In this document: one piece after another, positions 2,194 to 21,953 of the stretch | Position numbering within the stretch: position 1 is the stretch's first letter | Layout of the letters: the number at the start of each line of letters is the position of its first letter | Source of the DNA: Polychytrium aggregatum | Taxonomy: Eukaryota; Chytridiomycota; Chytridiomycetes; Polychytriales | Assembly: GCF_025602895.1 (NCBI RefSeq) | Contig: NW_026516240.1 | Span: 1-64,000 of the forward strand | DNA length: 64,000 nt | Reading direction: 5' to 3' | Notes under the pieces: model-generated | What the model saw: the letters and a program-made list of their open reading frames with translations, nothing else | What the model was told of the DNA's origin: nothing | Database searches by the model: none | Made by a program: the position numbers and the translations under genes

Positions 2194-3309
2194 ACTGCGG
2201 CCGATCACCCATATATATTGCACAGGGCTCCGATCCTGCCATTGTTCACATCCGACTGACATCATATGCGTATTCGCCAGCGGTGGCATTTCATTGATGT
2301 CGATATTCGACGCAATCACATCGCCGACTGAGTCATTTGTGTTCTTCTCATCCAGCAGAATCGCCGAGGTGGATCGCCAGTCCAACTCCCGTGTCCTTGC
2401 ACTGCATTGCTTCGCCTTCATCTGCCACCTCCATCAGTGTGTCCAGGGTATTAGATACCGACATATTCGCACCCTCGGCATGTTGGGGTCTTTGTGGAAT
2501 GGACGGCTTTCATCATGTCACCAACATGAGGGAGGTCGAGCACCGCAAGACCCGACTTCCATCCTTGGATAGTGGTGCCAACTGTCTGGGCGAGGATGAG
2601 TGCGCGGCAGAGAGACGAGGGCGAGATTGACCTTCCTTGAGGCCCAAACCTGTGATAAAAATGGAATCCAGTGGGCCTCTGCTTCTTGGCCACTCTCGAC
2701 ACATATCCCAAGACGATGTGCTATCGAGATTTGAAGTTGGCAGCAGTGCGGAAATCGCGGCTGTGATGCGCTTTCTTGTGAATGATGTATGTGCGCTTTG
2801 CCATAATCCGGCACGCTGAAGAGACAACTGAGCCCAACAGCTCCCACTGACAAAACCACTCCAAAGTCGGATCATTCATCCACTCGGCCAACAACGACCG
2901 AGTGGGAGAAGACGCAGAGCAAAGAGCGCAATCGTGTGGCGGGGCGGTCTGGATCGTGTCCACTCTTCCACCATTGTGGTTGCAGAACGAGGGATGATTT
3001 TGAATGTTGAGTTTGCTGTTGTCGAGAGGTCCGATGTTTCGGTCTGGCAATCGGTTTCTATCCGGCGATCAGCATCAGCGACCGTTGTGGGACAGCACTG
3101 TTTGTATATTGGATGGTTGGATGTATTGGATGTATTGGATGTATTGGATGTGTTGGATGTACTGAATATCAAATACAACACCACCACACTTCCCCATCAC
3201 TGAAAACACTTTGCAAGTGCACTCTTTGGTATCATGGTGTCTGGGATGGGTGATGGCACGGTTTGCTTGGCTGCTTGCATATTCAGTACTGTGACAGAAT
3301 CCTTGGAAT
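2194..3309. other. No supported gene; short minisatellite
   Basis: The stretch lies between the inner end of repeat A and the Sel1 pseudogene. Open frames here are short and look like noise. A 9-bp minisatellite (TGGATGTAT-like units, about five) lies at 3116-3165. I see no other structure. Confidence 0.5.
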
Positions 3310-4425
3310 ATGGCAATCAGGAAGGGCTCGGAATCAGGGCCACTTGCCGAGTTGCTCGAGGTTGAAGCTGGCATATCGGAATCCCTGCTCAGTGGACTTG
3401 CGATACCAGAAAACGGCGGTATTGGCGTCCTCGGGGACACCAGCGTCAACCTGGTAGCAAAGGCCGAGATAATCTTGTCCGTATCGATTGCCCTGCTCGG
3501 CCGACTTGCGATACCACTCGACTGCCTTGGTGTAGTCCTCGGTGACTCCATGTCCATAATAGTGGCACCAACCAAACCATCCACTGCCCGTTGGAGTTGC
3601 CTTGGCTGGCCGACTTGCTGTACCACTCGAATGCCATGCGTCTGTCTACTGATTTTCCTCGGGCCCAGTAGTAGCAGCTTCCGATCCAAAACTGGCTGTC
3701 GCTGTGGCCTTCGTTGGCGAGCTGCTCAAGTATGGATGTTGCTTTCATTTTGTTCTTGGCGGTTCCGAATCCATGAAACAAGCACACAGCCGCGAGATGT
3801 CTGCACAGCCAGTCTCTATCTGATCCAAGCTGGCACAGCTCGAAGAACTTGCGAGATGCGGGCAAGTCACTATTGATGCTGTACCACCCCGCTTAAAAAC
3901 ACTCGGTCTCCCCAAGCTTGAATTCATCCGATTGGTTGTCTCAGATGATCTTGACACCTTTCTGCTTGTCCTGAACGGTACCCCGGACGAGGTAGTGCAT
4001 CCATCCGACCATATGGGTGGCGATGGTTTGATGATCGGATCGATAGACTTGGTGCTGACATCCCGCCAGTGACCGAGAGCAGCGACATCGCTCTGTTCGA
4101 CACCATGACCGATGGATTGAGACCAGGCCCTTGGTGGACCCCGGTTGATACCGATGCCATCGTGATAGCATCCAGCCAGTTGGAACTGTGCGATTGGATG
4201 GCTTGTTTTGGCGGCATTCTTCAGTTGGCGAAAGACTCGCTGGCGGATGGCTGCCTGCTTGGATTCGTTTTCAAACTGCTGATTGTCGAGATCGGTTTGG
4301 AGGATGTGCCAGGAAGTACGAGGCAGCAGCGTTTCCCCGGTCTGAGCAACGAGCCAGGATCGGTCGGTTGTCTCTTGATCATCGCAGCGCAGCGAGATGG
4401 CAATCTGGTCACTTGTATGGGCCAA
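3310..4425 (-). pseudogene. Degraded Sel1-repeat protein, relative of the 9508-11997 kinase tail
   Basis: Reading leftward on the minus strand, Sel1-type sequence continues but changes frame several times. The pieces are: a block with AQFQLAGCYHDGIGIN (about 4200); a block with MVGWMHYLVRGT (about 4000), matching MMGWCCYLGRGT in the neighbouring kinase; a block with FFELCQLGSDRDWLCRHLAA (about 3850), matching FFGLCQLGTEHDWFCKHLAA; then GSCYYWARG and AFEWYSKSASQGN, followed by a shift near 3560 into YYGHGVTEDYTKAVEWYRKS and a further Sel1 unit. At least three frame changes with no good splice sites between them point to decay. No kinase domain is seen upstream of it, so it may be a partial duplicate of the tail only. 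Strong internal stops make a working product unlikely. Confidence 0.75.
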
Positions 4426-5363
4426 TCTGAATCTGTCCGTCTGGATCGCACAGTCCGTTTGGATCGCACAGTCCGTCTTCTGGCACCGTGTGGAAGCGAG
4501 GCAGCTTGGAGCTCAGAAGAGCCTGGGCGCATCTACACACATTCAAATGAATGCTGGGCGATATCGGGCATCGACGAGGTTGTTCTGGCTTCAGCTTGGC
4601 TTTGGTGGGTGGCAGATGACGTGTGGTTGAAGCAGGCTCGTTCATGCTGGCCATGTTGACGGAGACAGGAAGGAGGCAAGTGGGTGATGGATATAGACAG
4701 GAGACAGAGAGGGAAGTTGTGGAGAAGCAAGTCGAGCACTGGCAAGCCAAGCACACACACACATGTGCGTATCGAGTGCTCGTCCAATCAAAGTCGGAGC
4801 TGAATCAATCCTGGAATCGAAAGCAAGTCGAACATATCATCCAGTCTTGTCCGGTGGTCGGTGAACGACTGGTGTCGACGATGATTCTAGCGTCTCGTTG
4901 GCTCAAACATCAGTGATGCGGTTATGTGATTGGATGTGGGTGTGCTGTTCAACAGCGAGACCAGGACTCTCGTGTTGCCAATATCACAGACATGGTGAAT
5001 GTGTGTGTGGAACAGTTACGGATGGATCGATGCAAACGACGAGCCCAGGTTGGCTGGAGATGCAAGTGAAGCTCCGGAGTCACATTCTGCAGGGATTGAC
5101 AAGATATCACCATAGTTCGAGCTGATGTGATGCTTACACAGCCGAGCTGCGCACCTGATCACACACTGAGAACGCGGCTGTTGTGGACAAATGTGCTGCC
5201 CAAGATCCAGGAATAGCGATGCAGGCATATTCGATTGATCACGAGCCGTACCACACATTGATTTGATGTATCAGGGCTGACAGATGGACCATGGGTGGAA
5301 AAACTCTCCCACTGACCAAGGACAACTGGATCGGAGTGTATGAGGGCAGGGTTGGAAGGAATG
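4426..5363. other. Intergenic, holds copy 1 of a 213-bp dispersed repeat
   Basis: No gene is supported. It contains a near-exact 20-bp duplication around 4437-4475 and a dispersed repeat (4542-4754) shared with 12377-12590. The remainder, to the NLR stop at 5364, is featureless. Confidence 0.5.
4542..4754. repeat. Dispersed direct repeat, copy 1
   Basis: About 213 bp align with 12377-12590 in the same orientation, starting at TTCRAATGARTGCTGGGCG and ending near GCACTGGCAASCCAAG. Scattered substitutions and small indels separate the copies. Both copies flank Sel1-repeat sequences: this one lies just upstream of the pseudogene, the other just downstream of the intact kinase gene. No reading frame is conserved along the whole length in both copies. 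Confidence 0.8.
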
Positions 5364-8300
5364 CTAACAGCTACATGATCCGGCTTTTCTTATTGTTGTG
5401 GCCATGGTCAGAGGGCTTCTTGCGAGAGGACCCTGCAATCGAGGATCCGAGTGGTTGGCATTGCTGACCAATCTTTTTTCAATATCAGCAATGCCGATCT
5501 CAGCCTCTTTGATATCTTTGTGCTCGGGATTCTTGATGGTCTGGGTCCAAATGTCCAAAGCTTCCTGGTACAAGCCGAGTGCGTTGGCGTATTCCCCTTG
5601 AGCGTTGGACACATCACCCAGATTTCTGAGGGTCGTGGCAATCTCAGGGTGCTTCCGATTTTTGTAGACATTTGTGAAGATATCCAAGGCTTCTTGGAGC
5701 ATGCTTTGTGATTCGGAGAGCTGTCCTTGGAGAAACTTGAGTTTGCCATGAGCATCGAGGGTCCACGCAACATGCACATGTTGCCGAGTTTTGAAGGCCT
5801 TGACAAAGACACCCAATGCCTCGAGATAGCTGACTTCAGCCAGTTCGTAATTGCCTTGGATCAGAGCGACATTCCCGAGGCGACGGATCGTTATAGCGAC
5901 ATCGGGATGCTCTCGTGTTCCATAAACCTTGGTGTGTATGTCGAGCGCCTCCTGGTAGCACTTGAGGGCGGTCTCGTACTTGCCTTGAGACGAGGCGACA
6001 CTGCCCATGTTGGCGATTGTGGTGGCTACCGAGGGATGTTCCCGCGTGCCATAGATCTTGATCTTGATGTCGAGTGCCTCCTGGTAACGTTCGAGGGCGG
6101 TCTCGTAGTCGCCTTGGGAGGAGGCGATATCCCCGAGACAATGGATCGCCGTGGCTACTGAGGGGTGTTCTCGTGTCCCGTAGGCAGTGGCCATGATATC
6201 CAATGCTTCTCGGTAGTGCTCGAGGGCGGCCTCGTAATTGCCTTGGGAAGTGGCAATATCCCCGAGGCATTGGATCGTGGCGGCGACATCAGGGTGTTCC
6301 CGCGTGCCATAGACCATGGTCTCGATCACCAACACTTCTTGATAGTACTTGAAGGCAGTTTCGTAGTCACCTTGGGATGATGCGATATTGCCCAACTGAT
6401 GTATCGTGACAGCGATATCGGGGTGTTCCCGCGTGCCATAGACCATGGTCTCGATCACCAGCGCTTCTTGATAGTACTTGAAGGCAGTTTCGTAGTCACC
6501 TTGGGATGATGCGATATTGCCCAACTGATGTATCGTGACAGCGATATCGGGGTGTTCTCGTGTGCCATATACTTTGATCTTGATGTCGAGTGCTTCTTGA
6601 TAGTGCTTGAGAGCGACTTCGTAGTTGCCTTGGGCGGAGGCGACGTTTCCCATCTGATGGATCGTGGCGGCTACCGAGGGATGTTCCTGTGTACCAAAGA
6701 CCTTTACCATGATTCCAAGTGCATCTTGGTAGTATCTGAGGGCGGGTTTATAGTCACCTTGGGATGATGCGATATTGCCTAACTGATGTATCGTGACAGC
6801 GATATCGGGGTGTTCTCGTGTACCATATACTTTGATCTTGATGTCGAGTGCTTCTTGATAGTGCTTGAGAGCGACTTCGTAGTTGCCTTGGGCGGAGGCG
6901 ACGTTTCCCATCTGATGGATCGTGGCGGCTACCGAGGGATGTTCCTGTGTACCAAAGACCTTTACCATGATTCCAAGTGCATCTTGGTAGTATCTGAGGG
7001 CGGTTTTATAGTCACCTTGGGATTCGGCGACATTTCCCAACTGGTGCATCGTTGCTGCGACTTCAAGGTGTTCTCGTGTACCAAAGACTCTGGTCTTGAT
7101 ATCGAGTGCCTCTTCATAGTACCTGGAGGCGACTTCGTATTTGCCTTGGGCGGAGGCGACGTTTCCCAACTGGTGTATCGTGGCTGCGACTTCAGGGTGT
7201 TCTTTTGAGCCGTAGAATTCGATGCATTTGGCAAGATGCTGCTCATATAGCTCCATCGCCTGGGTGTAGGACCCGCGTATGTCCGCCATCTAAGCAATGC
7301 GATATTCGACTACTTGATGAATGTCCGCGGTATACCCATCTGCTGCCACCACCGCCGAAAATTCCTCAAGATGCTCCAAGTACGGATATGCATCCACCAG
7401 CAGAGATTCGGTTAGCTCAATCAGAGCTTCACCCGCTGCATCTTCAATCGCCTCGGCATTCAGTTCACTGTGTGCTTGGACATACTCTCGAGCCACTTGC
7501 TGGGTGAGCGAGTGTGTCGAGTACCGTCCCTCGTTTCCACTTCGGAGGAGACCACTCTGAACCACCATCTTGATCAGATCGGCCACTGTGGACAGATGGA
7601 TGATCAGTTCCATGCACTGGCACCATCAACTGCACTTCGATCCACTCAACTCACCTTCGATCTTGAACTCCATCTTCTGTACAATCTCCTTGATCAACTC
7701 AAACTGGATGTTGGCCGGTGCCACCAGACTGAGGGCACCGAACAGCCTGGTTGCCTCGATGCCCTCATCTCCTCGCTTCATCAGCGAGTCCAGCGACAGA
7801 TCCACAATCACCTTGAGCGACGACCGCGTGTCGTCCTCGCCATCCTGCAGCGCCAATGCTCCTGCAAACGTGGCCTCGAGCTCCGACAGGGGAGTGTCGT
7901 AGTTCTCGGCAAACGTCATGAATGTCTGGATGACGAGTGGATATCCGCTGATCTTGGCCACGATGTTGTCGAGGGATTTCCTGGCCTCGTCCGACACAAG
8001 TCGCTGAACAATCATCGGCGATGACGACATGATATAGTCGAGTGTGGTGGAGTCGTCCCAGTTGCCGAGACGGATCAGATCGTGCTGGAAGCTCGGTACC
8101 TTGGTCTCAAGAGCACTGGTGAATGCACCAGGAGGCAGCGAGGCCAGCCGGGTCGTCATCACCACATCGCCGCCGAACCCGACCGACTTGGAGTGCTCAA
8201 ACACAGAGTCGACCACATTGATGTCATCGACATTGTCGAGCACCAGGAGATAGCCATGAGTGTTGGCGAGGAACCTCGAGGCATGTTCCTTGATCACATC

Positions 8301-9386
8301 GGGCTTGATGCCAGGGAACATCTCGATGAGTCCATCGATGGCAGTCGACTCGGTCGAGCAGTTGATCCAGAAGACCTGGCGGTACTGTGGCTTGATGCCG
8401 ATGGTCTCGGCTTTGATGGCGAGGAGGTCGTCCTTGTTGCTCGCATTCATAATGCCCATCATGAAGAACAGGATCTGGATGGCGAGGACGGACTTGCCCA
8501 TGCCACCCATGCCAGAGATGACGGCACGGCCAGTCAGGGTGAGTTGCTTGAGCAGGGTGTCGAGGTGGACGGGATCGAATCGGAACTTGGAGTCGCAAAA
8601 GTATTTGTCATGGATGGCCGTAATGAGATCCATGTTGGGTGGGATGGGATGGACGAGGTTGAGGAGGCGGTAGACTCGCTTGTGCATCTGGTCGGGACGA
8701 ATGCCAAGGGATTGGATCTGGCTCACTCTGCCGAGGATCTGCTTGAGGGGGGCAAGGGCAGGGTCGTCGGGGAGGGACACCATGTGTGGCAGGAAGGGAG
8801 TGAAGTCATCGACATCGTCCTTGGTCTCCTTGGTGGCGATTCCGAGGGGAAGGACAGGGAGGGAGCGTTTGGCATCCTTGAGGTCGAGAGCCTTCTTGAT
8901 TTCGAGCAGGACGCTATACTCTTGGCCATTCTTGACCTTGTTCTTCATCATGTCCATCGAGGCCTTGCTGAGGAGGAGGAAGACGGCCTTGCTGGTGGGG
9001 AGGGCACTGATGGAGCTGGCTGGAGGGTCGCTGGGATTGTTGAGGCAGTCGACATCGTGGAAGACGGAAAGGGGTTTGCCATATCGACGGAGGGCGACCG
9101 AGGTGAGCACCTCCTTCAGAGCCTGGACAGTGTCGGCATCAGTCTGGGCACGGTATGAGAGGAACAAATCGTGGTCGGTGCCGTGGGCAGGGCAGGAATA
9201 GAGTTGGTTGCTGGTGGCCTGCATGCCGGATGATGTCGATTGTGGGAATAGAGCGACGAGTGCTGTCCAAGCAAAGCCGGCGGTCACACCAGATGCCGTC
9301 AGCGATCCGATCCACGTGAGCGACACGGCGTCATGTGCCATGTCCTCGTGCGCAGCACAAACAACCGAACACCGCCACATCGGCAT
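5364..9386 (-). CDS. TIR / NB-ARC / TPR NLR-like protein, one in-frame TAG
   Basis: Exon 1 runs 9386-7655. A 69-nt intron (7654-7586, GTGAGT...CACAG) joins it in frame to 7585-5364. Residues about 20-47 form one hydrophobic segment. A TIR-like domain follows (about 72-183; DLFLSYRA, and SVLLEI with Glu162 where TIR NADases have their catalytic Glu). Then comes an NB-ARC STAND NTPase: Walker A GMGGMGKS (292-299), Walker B YLLVLDNVDD (379-388), GGDVVMTTR and SGYPLVI. The C-terminal half is about 14 TPR units of 43 residues, of the kinesin-light-chain type. A TAG at 7292-7290 interrupts the first TPR; the frame is otherwise continuous and the next codon is ATG. The start may be 9386 or ATG 9341. 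The kinase gene is divergent, 121 bp away. If the TAG is real, the locus is a pseudogene or makes a truncated TIR-NB-ARC protein. Immune or allorecognition function is inference. Confidence 0.85.
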
Positions 9387-9507: not shown

Positions 9508-11997
9508 ATGACCAGCAAGCTCCTTATCCACCAGCACCAGGACAGACCACCATGGTACATCTCGCCCAGCGACATCACCGACCGCTCAGCCAGCCCCATC
9601 GGCCGTGGTGGGTTTGGTGGGGTGTTCACTGGCAGCTACTTTGGCACCCAAGTCGCCATCAAGCAGCTTCTCGGCGCTCCAAACGACCCCGAGCTCGCCA
9701 GCTACCACCATGAGATCGAGGTTTGGCAGAATCTCAGCCACCCCCACGTCCTCCCACTCCTCGGAGCCTGCGACAAGGGCGACGCCGGCGAAAAGATCAC
9801 TCCGTTCATGGTCTCTCCGTTCATGCCAAACGGCACGCTTCGTGACTATGTGGCCAACAACAACATTTCCCTCGAGAAGAAACTCAGTCTCTTGTACCAG
9901 GTTGCAGCGGCCCTGGCCTATCTGCACGCCAGAAGCATCATCCACGGCGACCTCAAGGCAGCCAACGTCCTCTTGGACAAATCCTTCCAGGCCATCGTCA
10001 CCGACTTTGGCTTGTCCAGAACCAAGCACACCTCGGCCTCGATGAACCCCAATCGAAATGGCGGCTCGACCAGTGGCACCGAGGGATACATGGCTCCCGA
10101 GATGCTCGACGATGAGAATCCGACTGGCACCACGATGATGACCGATGTCTATGCCTTCGCCATCACCATGTACGAAGTACTGAACAATGCCGATCCGGTT
10201 TGGGTTTCCAACGATGGTCAAGCGATGAAAGGCGAAGCTATCAGGGGGTTGGTCTGCAATGGCCAGAGACCCTCCCGATTCGATGGCATCCCCGACGACA
10301 TCTGGTTGCTCGTCGAACAGTGCTGGCACCAAGACCCATCCATGCGTCCCACCTTTGGGGACATCGCGTCGATTCTCGCTCCCTTCGAAGATGTTACTTC
10401 ATTCCCGATTCCCGCCGACACCGCCAGCTCTGCGTCGCCACGTCGACTCGAGTCCCCGACTCTGGCCCAGAGACTCACCACCGGCTATGGCCTCCCGCGG
10501 GCAGTGATCATGGGTATCCAGCGGGGTGACGCCGACGCCCATATCACTGCCGCCCACACGGTGTCGGACGGCAAGCCGGCCAACGACCCTGCCTGGACAA
10601 CTGCCGCCGAGCTGTATCAGGCAGCCGCCGACAAGGGGAGTGTCGAGGCCGCCTCCGAGCTTGCATGGCTGCATTTCACGGGCATCGGCATCACCAAGAG
10701 CGACACTGAGGCCTTCGCCTACTGGCAAGTTGTTCATAACAAGGCGAAGGACGCCACCATGAAACCCATTGCCACATTCATGATGGGCTGGTGCTGCTAT
10801 CTTGGCCGTGGAACTCGCCAAGACGAACCCAGGGCCAACCAACTCCTGCGCGAGAGCAAGACTGCCGAGTTTCCGTATGGCGAGAGCTCAATCCACGGAC
10901 TGGAAACGCAATGTTCCTCCTCGACTGCCGCTCGATTCTTCGGCTTGTGCCAACTCGGAACGGAGCACGACTGGTTCTGCAAGCACCTGGCTGCACGTTG
11001 CTTGATCGGCGGCTTTGGAGCCGACAAAGACCCGCAACTCGCCGTGCGGTTGCTGCAAGTACTTGCGGACCAAGGTCATGCCATCAGTCAGTATGCATTT
11101 GCTGATTGCTACCTGGGGGGTCTTGGCGTTCCTCAAGATGACGCCAAGGCTGTTGAACTGTATCGCCGAGGTGCAGCTCAAGGTCACTTGTGGTCGATTC
11201 TGAATGTCGGGCTCCGCTATGCGAACAGTCAAGGTGTCACCCAGGACGATGACCAGGCTGTCGAGTGGTATCGCAGGGCTGCCGAGATGGGAATGGCGGC
11301 TGCACAGAACCAACTGGGGTTTTCCTACTACAACGGCAAAGGTATCACTCAAGACTATGCCCAGGCTTTTGAATGGTACACAAAAGCTGCTAATCAGGGG
11401 CATACAGATGCCCAGTGCAATCTCGGTAGCTGCTACTACCACGGACATGGTGCCGTCCAGGACTATGCCAAGGCTGTCGAGTGGTTCACCAAATCTGCTG
11501 ATCAGGGCAATGTATGGGGTCAATGCAACCTCGGCAATTGCTTCTACCACGGGCATGGTGTCGTCCAAGACCATGCCAAAGCTGTCGAGTGGCTCACCAA
11601 GGCCGCCAATCAGGGGAATGCAATAGCCCAAACCGGTCTTGGTAACTGCTACCGTGATGGCGAAGGAGTAATCCAGGATTATACAAAGGCCGTTGAATGG
11701 TTCACCAGGGCTGCCGATCAGGGAAATGCAGTTGCTCAGAACAATCTCGGTAACTGCTATTACAAAGGTGAAGGTGTCGCCCAGGACTATGCCAAGACTC
11801 TCGAGTGGTTCACCAAGGCTGCGAATCAAGGAAATGCAGTTGCTCAGAACAACCTTGGTAACTTCTATCACAATGGCAGAGGTGTCACCAAGAGCATCGA
11901 GACTGCCCGACACTGGTACCGTAAAGCGGCTGACCAGGGTAACATAACCGCCCAAAACAACCTCGCCAAACTAGGCGGGGGCTGCAATATCCAGTGA
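9508..11997 (+). CDS. TKL-type protein kinase with C-terminal Sel1 repeats
   Basis: Single exon, 829 residues. The start MTSKLLIHQ at 9508 is chosen over an upstream in-frame start at 9208 because the upstream part overlaps the NLR gene and lacks similarity. The kinase domain spans about 25-310: glycine loop GRGGFGG (32-38), VAIK with Lys52, catalytic loop HGDLKAAN (Asp148, Asn153), DFG (166-168), GTEGYMAPE and DVYAFAITMYEV. HGDLKxxN is typical of the tyrosine-kinase-like/RIPK group. All catalytic residues are present, so it should be active. From about residue 350 to the end there are about eleven Sel1 units (pattern GxCYYxGxGVxQDYxKAVEWxTKAAxQGN), several nearly identical. Sel1 solenoids usually bind protein partners. 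It is divergent from the NLR and may act with it; that is inference. A decayed relative lies at 3310-4425. Confidence 0.92.
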   Translation: MTSKLLIHQHQDRPPWYISPSDITDRSASPIGRGGFGGVFTGSYFGTQVAIKQLLGAPNDPELASYHHEIEVWQNLSHPHVLPLLGACDKGDAGEKITPFMVSPFMPNGTLRDYVANNNISLEKKLSLLYQVAAALAYLHARSIIHGDLKAANVLLDKSFQAIVTDFGLSRTKHTSASMNPNRNGGSTSGTEGYMAPEMLDDENPTGTTMMTDVYAFAITMYEVLNNADPVWVSNDGQAMKGEAIRGLVCNGQRPSRFDGIPDDIWLLVEQCWHQDPSMRPTFGDIASILAPFEDVTSFPIPADTASSASPRRLESPTLAQRLTTGYGLPRAVIMGIQRGDADAHITAAHTVSDGKPANDPAWTTAAELYQAAADKGSVEAASELAWLHFTGIGITKSDTEAFAYWQVVHNKAKDATMKPIATFMMGWCCYLGRGTRQDEPRANQLLRESKTAEFPYGESSIHGLETQCSSSTAARFFGLCQLGTEHDWFCKHLAARCLIGGFGADKDPQLAVRLLQVLADQGHAISQYAFADCYLGGLGVPQDDAKAVELYRRGAAQGHLWSILNVGLRYANSQGVTQDDDQAVEWYRRAAEMGMAAAQNQLGFSYYNGKGITQDYAQAFEWYTKAANQGHTDAQCNLGSCYYHGHGAVQDYAKAVEWFTKSADQGNVWGQCNLGNCFYHGHGVVQDHAKAVEWLTKAANQGNAIAQTGLGNCYRDGEGVIQDYTKAVEWFTRAADQGNAVAQNNLGNCYYKGEGVAQDYAKTLEWFTKAANQGNAVAQNNLGNFYHNGRGVTKSIETARHWYRKAADQGNITAQNNLAKLGGGCNIQ

Positions 11998-13928: not shown

Positions 13929-14038
13929 GATGTTGGACGTTGCTGGATGGATTGTTCAAGTCAAGTGCTGGATGATTTGTCGGATGATGATTCAATCAAA
14001 CCCCAGTCATATATGCTATGCGGTGTAACATCCACCGA

Positions 14039-14122
14039 CCGACGATAGCTCAGTTGGTAGTAGCATCAGACTGTAGTGAACGAGCAATCTGAGGGTCCCC
14101 GGTTCGACTCCGGGTCGTCGGA
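14039..14122 (+). tRNA. tRNA-Tyr (GTA) with a 10-nt intron
   Basis: The acceptor stem is CCGACGA (14039-14045) paired with TCGTCGG (14115-14121), discriminator A. The anticodon arm reads CAGACTGTA, then 10 extra bases (GTGAACGAGC), then AATCTG. Removing them restores a normal CTGTAAA loop with anticodon GTA. The intron sits just after the anticodon, as in other eukaryotic tRNA-Tyr genes. An identical copy is at 21782-21865, minus. Confidence 0.95.
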
Positions 14123-14127
14123 TTCCA

Positions 14128-14200
14128 GCCTTCTTGGCTCAGTTGGCAGAGCGTCTGCCTAGTAAGCAGAAGGTCACCAGTTCAATTCTGGTAGAAGGCA
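14128..14200 (+). tRNA. tRNA-Thr (AGT)
   Basis: 73 nt, no intron. Acceptor GCCTTCT (14128-14134) pairs with AGAAGGC (14193-14199), discriminator A14200. The anticodon loop CTAGTAA gives anticodon AGT. Only 5 bp separate it from tRNA-Tyr, so the two may be co-transcribed. A second copy is at 21704-21776, minus. Confidence 0.96.
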
Positions 14201-14545
14201 TTCCTTTTTCTTTCCCTGCTCCTGGTCCTGGTCCTGTTCTTGTTCCTGTTGCATCTCGCTCTCTCCTTTGTTGTTGCTGATGCTGCTTCTGCTCGGTGCT
14301 GCTGCCTCACCTCATCGTTGCTGTTGCGGTTTGCATGGTGCGTTTGTTGCGCTGATCAACTCGCACTGTGTTTTTGTGCTCAGTCCCCATCGTGTGTTGC
14401 GCTTCTGTCCACTTGCATCCATATCGTCGTGCCCGTGCATTTTGTTCGCCCCAGTGTCTATCACCGTGCCTAACCAAACTCGCTTGAAGCTTCGGAACGA
14501 TCTTGTTCTCTCCGTGACAATCTTCCAAATTTTTCCTTTCCTCGA

Positions 14546-18321: not shown

Positions 18322-18764
18322 ACTGGTGTTATCATCAACATCACCTGATATGGCACTATCACCTGTCCCCATCCACTCCGACCACCACCCCCTTCCCTCA
18401 CTTCCGCTATTTCTAGCTCGAAACTGAGACTCTTGAATGAAAATGTAAAGCTTCTATGCAAGTCAGAATAATAAATTGACTTTGAAACTCCGAGCCCATC
18501 TGATCTGTGTCTGCAGCGAAAGTGAGAGTATCTCGGCCACCGGTGTGGCAATTGATCCTGATTGTCTGTTGAGTATTTTGCATGGCACTGCCCTGGGGGT
18601 GATATCAGTTGCTCAGTTTGCCTCGTTGGTTTGGTTGGTTCCAACAGAGCCTGATACGTCGAGGATGAGCACTCCACAGGTCCACCACAGTCCTCCGTCT
18701 CCAGCAGAAGCCCAGTCCGGCTGGTGACATCAGAATAAATAGCTGATGAGTGCCATTTCGGACC
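18322..18764. other. Intergenic, no feature seen
   Basis: 3' flank of the UNC93-like gene up to the inner border of repeat arm A'. AATAAATTG-like sequence near 18468 could serve in 3'-end formation. Nothing else is visible. Confidence 0.4.
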
Positions 18765-18995
18765 GCCTTCATACTGGAGTCGATATCGAAGGGGTGTGTG
18801 TTACGCCGTGTCCCTCACACAATGCCGAACGTCACCCATCCAAGTTGTGCACCGGTCATCCCGACCGATGAACACACAGACACAGACACACAGACACACA
18901 GGCGGAGCATTCATCGCCCGTGTGTCCTCAGAAACGGGACATATGAGGCCGAGGCATCTGCCGACGTCATCAGGACATATTCCCGCCGCCGTAAC

Positions 18996-19003
18996 CTATA
19001 TAG
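18996..19003 (+). promoter_or_regulatory. TATA-like element upstream of 7TM gene copy 2
   Basis: CTATATAG about 203 bp before the chosen ATG (19206). The distance is long for a TATA box, so the leader would be about 170 nt or the true start would be an earlier codon. The same element occurs in arm A. Confidence 0.35.
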
Positions 19004-19205
19004 CGCGTATGGCATTGCTCCCCCGGCCCTGTCCCGGATCTATCCTCAGCGGCACTTCTCGAGCCCGGCCACATCGCTTGGAAGCCGACACTGTCTTGCC
19101 ATCAACTTTGGCACTGTTCTCTCAATCCCGAGTGCCTCCGACGTCCATATCGTCGCGTATTCAACCTCTGTCGATCCAGCCCTCAAGACCATCCAGACCA
19201 CAGCC

Positions 19206-20180
19206 ATGGATCCCGTTGTGATGCAAAATGCCTCAATCTTTTCGATTGTCGTCTACATCGGCACAGCCAATTTAGCTTTTCATTGCACAAAATACGTCAA
19301 GTGGAGACATGCATTCAACATTCAGCGCGGTCTCCAGATACACTCGCTCATGGCTTTGGCAACCATATTCTCGGCACTCTACTGCATTGGCAATCAACTG
19401 ATGCTTTATGACGTGTGCACAGCCAACACATACTGCACCCAGTTCGCCAACTTTCTCTATGCCTTTGGCGATTGCATCGGGTCCGCCTCTATCGGTTGGG
19501 CATACCTGTTGAGACTGCGAGTGATGACCGTCAACAGCGAGCCAATGTACGCATGGCTCTTTGTATTTGGGATTGCACCGATCGTCTATGGCACCAACGA
19601 TGTGTGCTTCATCCTCAGTACCTACGGCGTCATTTCCACGGCCGAATCGTGGTACCTCAACTTCATTTTCAACCTGGCACTCGAAATCAACCTCATCTGT
19701 CTCCATGTCCTGATGATGTTTCGACTGCGTTCCCTCGTCAACTCTGCACGTGTACTAAGATCGTCGGCACCGTCGCGAACTTTAACAAGTCAAAGTCGAA
19801 GCAGCACAACGGGTCGCTTCGAAAGCAGGGATGAGGTCAAGCGCGAAGGGGCGACCCTCATTGTGGCGATCGCAACTGAACTGGCGCTGTATGTCGGATT
19901 CCAAGTATACACTCAATACGACGCCACCGGGTTGATCGGAAACGCCGTCTGCATATTCCTATGGGTCCTGGACATTTTCCTGTTCTGCGTCGTCAATCAG
20001 TATATCACCAAGATCATCAAGAGGTCATCGGCAACAACAATGAGTGAAGGCTCGGCATCAGTGAACCCTTCCAAATCCTTTCAGCCGGATAGTCCTTCAA
20101 GTAGACCCATCATATCTACCGCACGAAGCTCCAGTGTTGCTCGACCGCTCACAGCTCAAAGCCCGGACAACGAAGTATAA
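19206..20180 (+). CDS. Seven-transmembrane receptor-like protein, copy 2
   Basis: Same 324-residue protein as the 778-1752 copy, with identical translation throughout. It has seven hydrophobic segments, then a Ser-rich tail (SSATTMSEGSASVNPSKSF and beyond). The open frame extends upstream to 18750, including an in-frame ATG at 18822, but that part is Thr/His/Arg-rich and unlike a receptor N terminus, so I start at MDPVVMQ. The two genes point away from each other with respect to the 16.6 kb between them. Identity of both coding and non-coding parts means that both copies carry the same promoter. Confidence 0.7.
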   Translation: MDPVVMQNASIFSIVVYIGTANLAFHCTKYVKWRHAFNIQRGLQIHSLMALATIFSALYCIGNQLMLYDVCTANTYCTQFANFLYAFGDCIGSASIGWAYLLRLRVMTVNSEPMYAWLFVFGIAPIVYGTNDVCFILSTYGVISTAESWYLNFIFNLALEINLICLHVLMMFRLRSLVNSARVLRSSAPSRTLTSQSRSSTTGRFESRDEVKREGATLIVAIATELALYVGFQVYTQYDATGLIGNAVCIFLWVLDIFLFCVVNQYITKIIKRSSATTMSEGSASVNPSKSFQPDSPSSRPIISTARSSSVARPLTAQSPDNEV

Positions 20181-20888
20181 GCGACAGTGGAATGATGGCT
20201 TTGAGCAAATCGGCTTGCCCTGGCGCATTGCACAATCGAGGCCAATGAATTTTGATACTATGAGGGCGCGACGCAGGTTCACAGAGTTGGGCGATGGTCG
20301 TGGCTGGTAGATGGCAGGCCGCCAGCAACAAATATCCGAGAGACGACGCTCCTCCGACAGGGAGGAGGATGGATGGAGTTGTGCTGCGTTCGCGTCGTGT
20401 GCGGTGCGATTGTTTGGTTGTTTGATTGGGGAATGGGCAGGCGATGATGAGCAGAGCAGGCGATAATGTCGGTGGGCGGAGCCTTGAACCCATCATGCCA
20501 TTGAAGAGCCGCGCCCAGTACAGTACCGATACAGCACTCAGTACAGTACCCAGTACAGTGGTAGATGTGCGGAGCATCCACTTTGGCAAAGAGTCTCTCT
20601 GGTGCTGGCAGGCGAGCAGGGGGGAAGCGAGCAGGGGAAGAGTGGTGAAAGCAAAGGCGATGAACAACAGAGAGCGGTATGGGGCGAATGCGCAACTGAG
20701 CAAATAAGGAACTGAAGCCAATGTGGAATTGCGCAAATGTGAGCTGAACGAATGTGTAATCGTGCAAGGGAGAAAGAAAGACGTGAGGGAGAAAGCCAAA
20801 GAGGCAGCGAGCGGATTGACAAAAGTGGGAGGAACAGTGTGTGAGATGACGGAAGGGACAGCGAAGAAAAAAAAAGCGAAAGCAAAAT

Positions 20889-20959
20889 TGCATGGTCCGG
20901 GAATCGAACCCGGGTCTGCCGCGTGGCAGGCGGCAATTCTACCACTGGACCAACCATGC
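20889..20959 (-). tRNA. tRNA-Gly (GCC), second copy
   Basis: Identical 71-nt reverse-complement copy of the tRNA at 3-73: acceptor pairs, CTGCCAC anticodon loop and T arm are intact. It sits at the outer end of repeat arm A'. Confidence 0.97.
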
Positions 20960-20961
20960 CT

Positions 20962-21414: not shown

Positions 21415-21703
21415 GGGCGAACAAAATGCACGGGCACGACGATATGGATGCAAGTGGACAGAAGTGCAACACACGATGGGGACTGAGCACAACAACACAG
21501 TGCGAGTTGATCAGCGCAACAGACGCACCATGCAACAAACGCACCATGCAAACCGCAACAGCAACGATGAGGTGAGGCAGCAGCACCGAGCAGAAGCAGC
21601 ATCAGCAACAGCAAAGGAGAGAGCGAGATGCAACAAGAACAAGAACAAGAACAAGAACAGGAACAGGACCAGGACCAGGGAAAGAAAAGAAAAGAAAAAG
21701 GAA

Positions 21704-21776
21704 TGCCTTCTACCAGAATTGAACTGGTGACCTTCTGCTTACTAGGCAGACGCTCTGCCAACTGAGCCAAGAAGGC
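21704..21776 (-). tRNA. tRNA-Thr (AGT), second copy
   Basis: Reverse complement of the 14128-14200 gene, with the same cloverleaf and AGT anticodon. Confidence 0.96.
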
Positions 21777-21781
21777 TGGAA

Positions 21782-21865
21782 TCCGACGACCCGGAGTCGA
21801 ACCGGGGACCCTCAGATTGCTCGTTCACTACAGTCTGATGCTACTACCAACTGAGCTATCGTCGG
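21782..21865 (-). tRNA. tRNA-Tyr (GTA), second copy, same 10-nt intron
   Basis: Exact reverse-complement copy of 14039-14122 including the intron. Confidence 0.95.
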
Positions 21866-21953
21866 TCGGTGGATGTTACACCGCATAGCATATATGACTG
21901 GGGTTTGATTGAATCATCATCCGACAAATCATCCAGCACTTGACTTGAACAAG

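Follow-up and report, generated by a model that had tools for sequence, protein, structure and literature searches.

A probable truncated member of an expanded TIR-NB-ARC-TPR receptor family in the chytrid Polychytrium aggregatum

Gene model and truncation of the receptor locus

The window analysed here, 64,000 nucleotides at the start of contig NW_026516240.1 of Polychytrium aggregatum, carries on its minus strand the parts of a NOD-like receptor (NLR): an N-terminal TIR domain, an NB-ARC nucleotide-binding module and an array of tetratricopeptide repeats (TPR). A first-pass annotation had read these as a single fused protein. All three parts do lie on the minus strand (Table 1), but they do not form one open gene: the open reading frames (ORFs) are an exon 1 (ORF 9386-7626), a short second exon and a TPR ORF, and the second exon ends in an in-frame TAG directly before the repeats. 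With moderate confidence, we read the locus as a truncated member of a large TIR-NB-ARC-TPR receptor family of a flagellated fungus, consisting of NLR-type STAND (signal transduction ATPases with numerous domains) proteins that would work as proposed below. Throughout, L-numbers denote loci (L007 being the window copy) and C-numbers contigs of the same genome.

We keep the residue numbering of the first-pass annotation, which starts 54 residues ahead of the likely start, Met55 (window position 9224). This start was chosen because, away from the nearest copies, the alignment of relatives begins only at about residue 36-60, and because the near copy L012 has a stop at residue 50; residues 1-54 are therefore probably non-coding, and Glu162, discussed below, would be Glu108 of the protein. 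The donor of intron 1 (GT[AG]AG) lies at the same place in 25 aligned rows, with the acceptor visible for few of them only. Exon 2 encodes the sequence THSLTQQVARE, which to our reading resembles an MHD-type motif.

The premature stop is shared. A direct check of the seven near copies found the TAG in six (L007-L011 and L016) and not in L012, which is 89% identical to the window over exon 1. It occupies 4 of the 25 aligned rows (L007, L009, L010 and L011; L008 lies outside the alignment), while the other 21, including L012, show different letters at the site and their alignment continues across it. The five TAG copies that were modelled all end at residue 676 (index 675). The six TAG copies occur in at least two genomic settings, at the start of C312, C70, C222 and C339 and inside C28. 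Because the TAG removes the frame into the sensor, the window copy has no C-terminal repeat sensor in the same protein; at best it could yield a TIR-NB-ARC product that lacks the sensor, and otherwise it is a pseudogene in decay.

Two other accounts of the TAG were weighed. It could sit inside a second intron of 24 bases (GTAGTC...TTAG), leaving the gene intact; the stretch has GT...AG ends and a length divisible by three, yet the 21 rows lacking the TAG align through it ungapped and it is far shorter than intron 1, which measures 69-79 bases in 20 of 30 splice models (range 40-218). With relatives reading through, we rejected this very improbable intron. Alternatively, the copy could be a functional truncated TIR-NB-ARC protein, acting as adaptor, helper or decoy for full-length receptors, as plant truncated TIR-NB-ARC proteins may. 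The recurrence of the TAG in six copies and in at least two settings speaks for such a role, as does the comparison of five TAG copies, which differ by 0-4 bases over TIR residues 55-232 and show a ratio of nonsynonymous to synonymous differences per site (pN/pS) of 0.24-0.26 in the NB-ARC where differences exist. Such a ratio, which counts against our reading, is not predicted for a plain pseudogene unless gene conversion has acted: it may reflect either a constrained truncated product or conversion from intact copies keeping the sequence clean. However, a low pN/pS whose underlying differences cluster in a single domain can indeed arise by conversion with intact paralogues, and decay is favoured because L016 has a split TIR and L009 an additional break in its TPR region. 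We therefore regard a functional helper or decoy as unlikely, although worth keeping in view, and continue with the window copy as a truncated family member.

Table 1. Features of the receptor locus and of the adjacent gene (positions in the window)
Feature	Position	Strand	Evidence or remark
Exon 1, from likely start Met55	7655..9224	-	TIR, linker, NB-ARC; GT donor at 7654
TIR domain, residues 72-200	8787..9173	-	40% identity to L042 TIR; family profile against SARM1; family dN/dS 0.34
Glu162 codon	8901..8903	-	Aligned with SARM1 Glu642
NB-ARC, about residues 276-575	7662..8561	-	Pfam PF00931, 30.1 bits (cut-off 23.5)
Walker A, GMGGMGKS	8513-8490	-	
Walker B, LLVLDNVDD	8249-8223	-	
Intron 1, 69 bases	7586..7654	-	GTGAGT...CCACAG; donor shared by aligned rows; splice models
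Exon 2, end of NB-ARC module	7290..7585	-	Terminates in TAG
Premature in-frame TAG	7290..7292	-	Directly before TPR ORF
TPR ORF	5364..7289	-	Separated by TAG from upstream frame; Pfam TPR_12, 401 bits
TPR array, about twelve 43-residue repeats	5655..7202	-	129-base period; last repeats divergent
Protein kinase gene with Sel1 repeats	9508..11997	+	Eleven Pfam stretches; divergent from receptor

Identity of the NB-ARC and N-terminal domains

Both the NB-ARC and the TPR array are recognised directly by Pfam, as the first-pass annotation had anticipated, and the Walker motifs that it had called intact are also conserved: of their 17 positions, 10 are identical in all 44 aligned loci and the least conserved is kept in 37 of 44. 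In these counts, as in those given below for Glu162 and Asp111, alleles, copies that hardly differ and loci that overlap within a single gene each enter separately. With an NB-ARC that has Walker A and B, the window copy carries, by its sequence, the nucleotide-binding module of an NB-ARC STAND ATPase.

The N-terminal domain is a harder case, and several results weigh against calling it a TIR. Searches with the window sequence alone, on which the first-pass annotation had wanted the assignment to stand, returned nothing significant: the window protein has no match to the Pfam TIR families (PF13676 and PF01582) at E up to 1, and against the PDB the window domain retrieved nothing relevant, only RcpC at E 1.2. 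A profile of 12 close-clade sequences likewise matched no TIR in the PDB. The single-sequence structure model, made with no alignment, was unusable (predicted local distance difference test, pLDDT, 39.6); its best Foldseek match, PdTIR (E 0.019), was not significant, and none of its 255 matches reached E 0.001. When eight family TIRs were scanned singly, one passed the TIR_2 cut-off (L042), five matched below it and two gave no match.

The link to TIR comes through the family. The domain of L042, a paralogue in the same genome, is 40% identical to the window domain over 170 residues aligned ungapped (E 3e-46 in a single comparison), and it is this TIR that exceeds the TIR_2 cut-off (35.6 bits vs 28). 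TIR_2 matches at E up to 1 were found for 7 of 14 family members in one scan and 4 of 15 in another. A profile of 14 members, distant ones included, matched the SARM1 TIR at E 1.4e-5, and the same profile reached PdTIR, Roq1, AbTIR and TcpB only at E 0.05-0.44 (PdTIR 0.05, AbTIR 0.34). Judged from these alignments, TIR homology is secure at the level of the family, and the TIR identity of the window copy is accepted indirectly, because L042 and the SARM1 match tie its family to TIR. An N-terminal domain of another flavodoxin-like or unrelated type would agree with the absence of TIR matches for the window domain in Pfam and the PDB and for the close-clade profile in the PDB; set against the ungapped identity to a domain above the cut-off, the seven TIR_2 matches among 14 members and the SARM1 match, it is highly improbable.

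The first-pass annotation had placed Glu162 at the catalytic position of TIR NADases, and this placement holds: in the family profile this Glu and the strand-B Asp both align with their SARM1 counterparts, the Glu with Glu642, which we take to be the catalytic residue of SARM1. The match in 7knq_A (a 724-residue chain) ends at 648, and counting back from that end along the residue-level alignments of other SARM1 chains places the aligned Glu at 642. Of 39 aligned loci, 38 retain Glu162, the exception being L006, and 43 of 44 retain Asp111. A glycine of the BB-loop and a tryptophan near the pocket matter for TIR NADases as well, and here the clade departs from SARM1 and the bacterial NADase TIRs. 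In a 23-sequence alignment, 19 sequences have Pro at BB-loop position 118, against two with Gly and two with Ala; at position 158, four residues ahead of the Glu, 22 carry Ser or Asn, one carries Lys and none carries Trp. Because of the glycine mostly lost and the tryptophan missing, NADase activity of the clade's TIR appears plausible but not assured; these are points against the proposed enzyme, which may be inactive. On the same two losses one could build a TIR devoid of NADase activity that serves as a homotypic adaptor only and signals via other TIR proteins of the genome, and TIR_2 matches outside the receptor family do exist. The retention of Glu162 and Asp111, however, exceeds what an adaptor-only role needs, and we find this account doubtful, if by no means negligible.

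The receptor family and variation of its repeats

The genome assembly (64.7 Mb, 418 contigs) contains 78 matches to exon 1. TIR and NB-ARC are spanned in a single piece by 54 of them, 7 of which have a stop flagged inside the match; a further 18 consist of NB-ARC pieces, and the other 6 are partial as well. Family counts are lower bounds, since 75 of 123 candidates were scored, and they include both haplotypes, as judged from IFT57 being found on two contigs (C390 and C397). A six-frame PF00931 search listed only six places, the window not among them, which means that counts from family searches are too low in this genome. On C397, IFT57 and a Fungal_trans match occur together with two TIR-NLR places, and the family therefore belongs to a flagellated fungal host; 7 of the 11 Fungal_trans matches fall on another contig, C146.

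Splice models were obtained for 30 of 32 loci tried (L025 and L026 gave none), and in 22 of the 32 the frame runs without a stop from the TIR across exon 2 as far as the examined DNA extends. TIR-NB-ARC-TPR is the architecture of the family, as the first-pass annotation had proposed for the single gene. The 22 are loci and not genes, as allelic pairs count separately and acceptors were picked for their resemblance to exon 2 of the window copy, and five of them (L028, L034, L035, L004 and L005) are weak models with similarity scores of 0.30-0.55. L012 and L048 have a stop only ahead of the likely start, and L020 is shifted. Seventeen of the open loci were searched for TPR, with 7-8 full repeats found in each.

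Across the family, the TIR and NB-ARC are under purifying selection: the ratio of nonsynonymous to synonymous substitution rates (dN/dS) is 0.34 for the TIR, 0.51 for the linker, 0.25 for the NB and 0.35 for the ARC (ratio of means over pairs of 23 sequences; after pairs with dS outside 0.05-2 were dropped, 209-237 of 253 remained).

The repeats behave differently along their length. Some window repeats are identical to one another. We analysed the TPR of 20 loci, setting aside three near-identical TAG copies, the five weak models, L020 and L048. Among 139 repeats from 18 of these loci (all but L007 and L011), column entropy is highest at columns 14, 7, 17, 36, 18 and 4. Taking the near-invariant Gly of column 13 as position 8, columns 14, 7, 17 and 18 become positions 9, 2, 12 and 13; variable concave-face positions named in a published account are 2, 5, 9, 12, 13, 33 and 34 (PMC1261162). 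Columns 7, 10, 14, 17 and 18 (positions 2, 5, 9, 12 and 13) have a pN/pS of 0.77 vs 0.34 elsewhere. This comparison drew on 14 loci, whose repeats gave 325 pairs with 75-98% DNA identity that are not independent of one another; on 300 of these pairs, 16 of 100000 random five-column sets reached the concave mean pN. There is thus an excess of variation on the concave, ligand-binding TPR face. Some details pull the other way: taken singly, column 10 does not show a high pN, positions 33-34 fall outside the most variable set in this family, and the concave-face ratio stays below 1 in pairs that are not independent. The pattern fits a recognition surface and also follows a general tendency of TPR.

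At E up to 0.01, TIR_2 has 27 matches in the genome, 9 of them above the cut-off and some within the receptor family. Three, L037 (C386), L038 (C90) and L040 (C52), overlap no exon 1 match and may be separate TIR proteins.

Proposed mechanism, known systems and genomic surroundings

The family probably serves non-self recognition. By analogy with known NLRs, the concave TPR face of intact members would bind a ligand, which might be a protein of non-self origin or a self protein that is guarded; the NB-ARC would then exchange ADP for ATP and oligomerise, gathering the TIR domains. Once assembled, the TIRs would cleave NAD+ or pass a signal on to TIR proteins acting as partners. The outcome might be cell death or some other response, in defence or to non-self.

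The first-pass annotation had considered the architecture unusual for fungi, a view that published work does not support. One study reports fungal and bacterial TIR-NB-TPR or HET-NB-TPR sequences (PMC9806590), and another states that NLRs of Chytridiomycota have been reported to carry TIR domains (PMC9815663); the occurrence of TIR domains in fungi is also noted elsewhere (PMC7075850). These proteins have the domain order of our family, the fungal ones coming from the same kingdom, so the architecture is already known in fungi and the interest of the family lies mainly in its expansion. The portions available of these accounts describe no comparable expansion, and the window copy differs from them in having no frame into the TPR. 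A 2014 survey found no NLRs in chytrids (PMC4986451), and a later one gives NLR numbers from one per species in some Chytridiomycota upward, with no upper figure for chytrids in the part consulted (PMC12258605). Among the titles and abstract openings listed from the open-licence literature, none dealt with an expansion of TIR-NLRs in chytrids, which is weak evidence of absence.

Plant TNPs (TIR-NBARC-TPR) resemble the family in domain layout: a TIR, an NB-ARC with Walker motifs and TTR, and C-terminal TPR. According to PMC9806590, a maize TNP kills cells via its NADase site and P-loop, and the similarity of fungal proteins to TNPs lies in the nucleotide-binding domain and not in the TIR or TPR. 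The fungal HET-E, HET-D and HET-R are similar in joining a TIR-related effector to a STAND NTPase whose internal repeats closely resemble one another (PMC12881547); HET-domain NLRs differ in having NACHT and WD40 where the family has NB-ARC and TPR. Pfam gave no HET match for the N-terminal domain of the window, and PF06985 had no match in the genome, a weak negative since no control genome matched either.

A first scan of bacterial genomes found no relatives among the 93 stretches that fitted a pattern, and a second, with an NTPase-only profile, found 11 loci at 24-38% identity. One viral scan produced five NTPase relatives, and another, for the TIR, gave none among 52 stretches. A protein from a Verrucomicrobia metagenome-assembled genome (L059) shares the layout but is very distant, with 27% identity in its best NTPase segment; its TIR_2 and NB-ARC matches are below their cut-offs and DUF4062 above. 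As a bacterial counterpart of the layout, it shows DUF4062/TIR-like, NB-ARC-like, DUF7779 and TPR_12 stretches at 2854-6147.

Taken further, an expanded TIR-NLR repertoire with sensors diversifying on the ligand face, a constrained TIR and NB-ARC, and sensor-less copies kept as helpers could make up a two-tier arrangement of TIR receptors and helpers close to the base of the fungal tree, a speculative extension that we think rather improbable. If true, it would place an expanded repertoire in a phylum for which single-NLR species have been reported. The fungal NLRs described to date are mostly those of mushrooms and moulds. The dozens of TIR-NB-ARC places and the variation of the binding face suggest that TIR-type non-self recognition can be elaborated beyond plants, bacteria and higher fungi, and the intact paralogues offer a testable set.

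The divergent kinase/Sel1 gene next to the receptor (Table 1) is also found upstream of L008-L012 and L016; near the other family loci, only Sel1-like stretches close to L046, L052 and L053 were matched. Two large inverted repeats lie in the window. The larger, 99.8% identical, pairs 1-2193 with 18765-20961 and has tRNA-Gly at its outer ends; ORFs 778-2421 and 18750-20180, in its arms, have no Pfam match at E up to 0.001. The smaller, 92% identical, pairs 13952-14451 with 21415-21952, with tRNA-His and tRNA-Thr in both arms. A nearby telomere, which might have explained why the distances from contig starts are equal, was rejected, as none of six telomere-type repeat patterns occurs in the window. 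C70, C222 and C339 begin at the window's first base, two bases before the tRNA-Gly, and this shared contig start is a repeat boundary that recurs inside the window.

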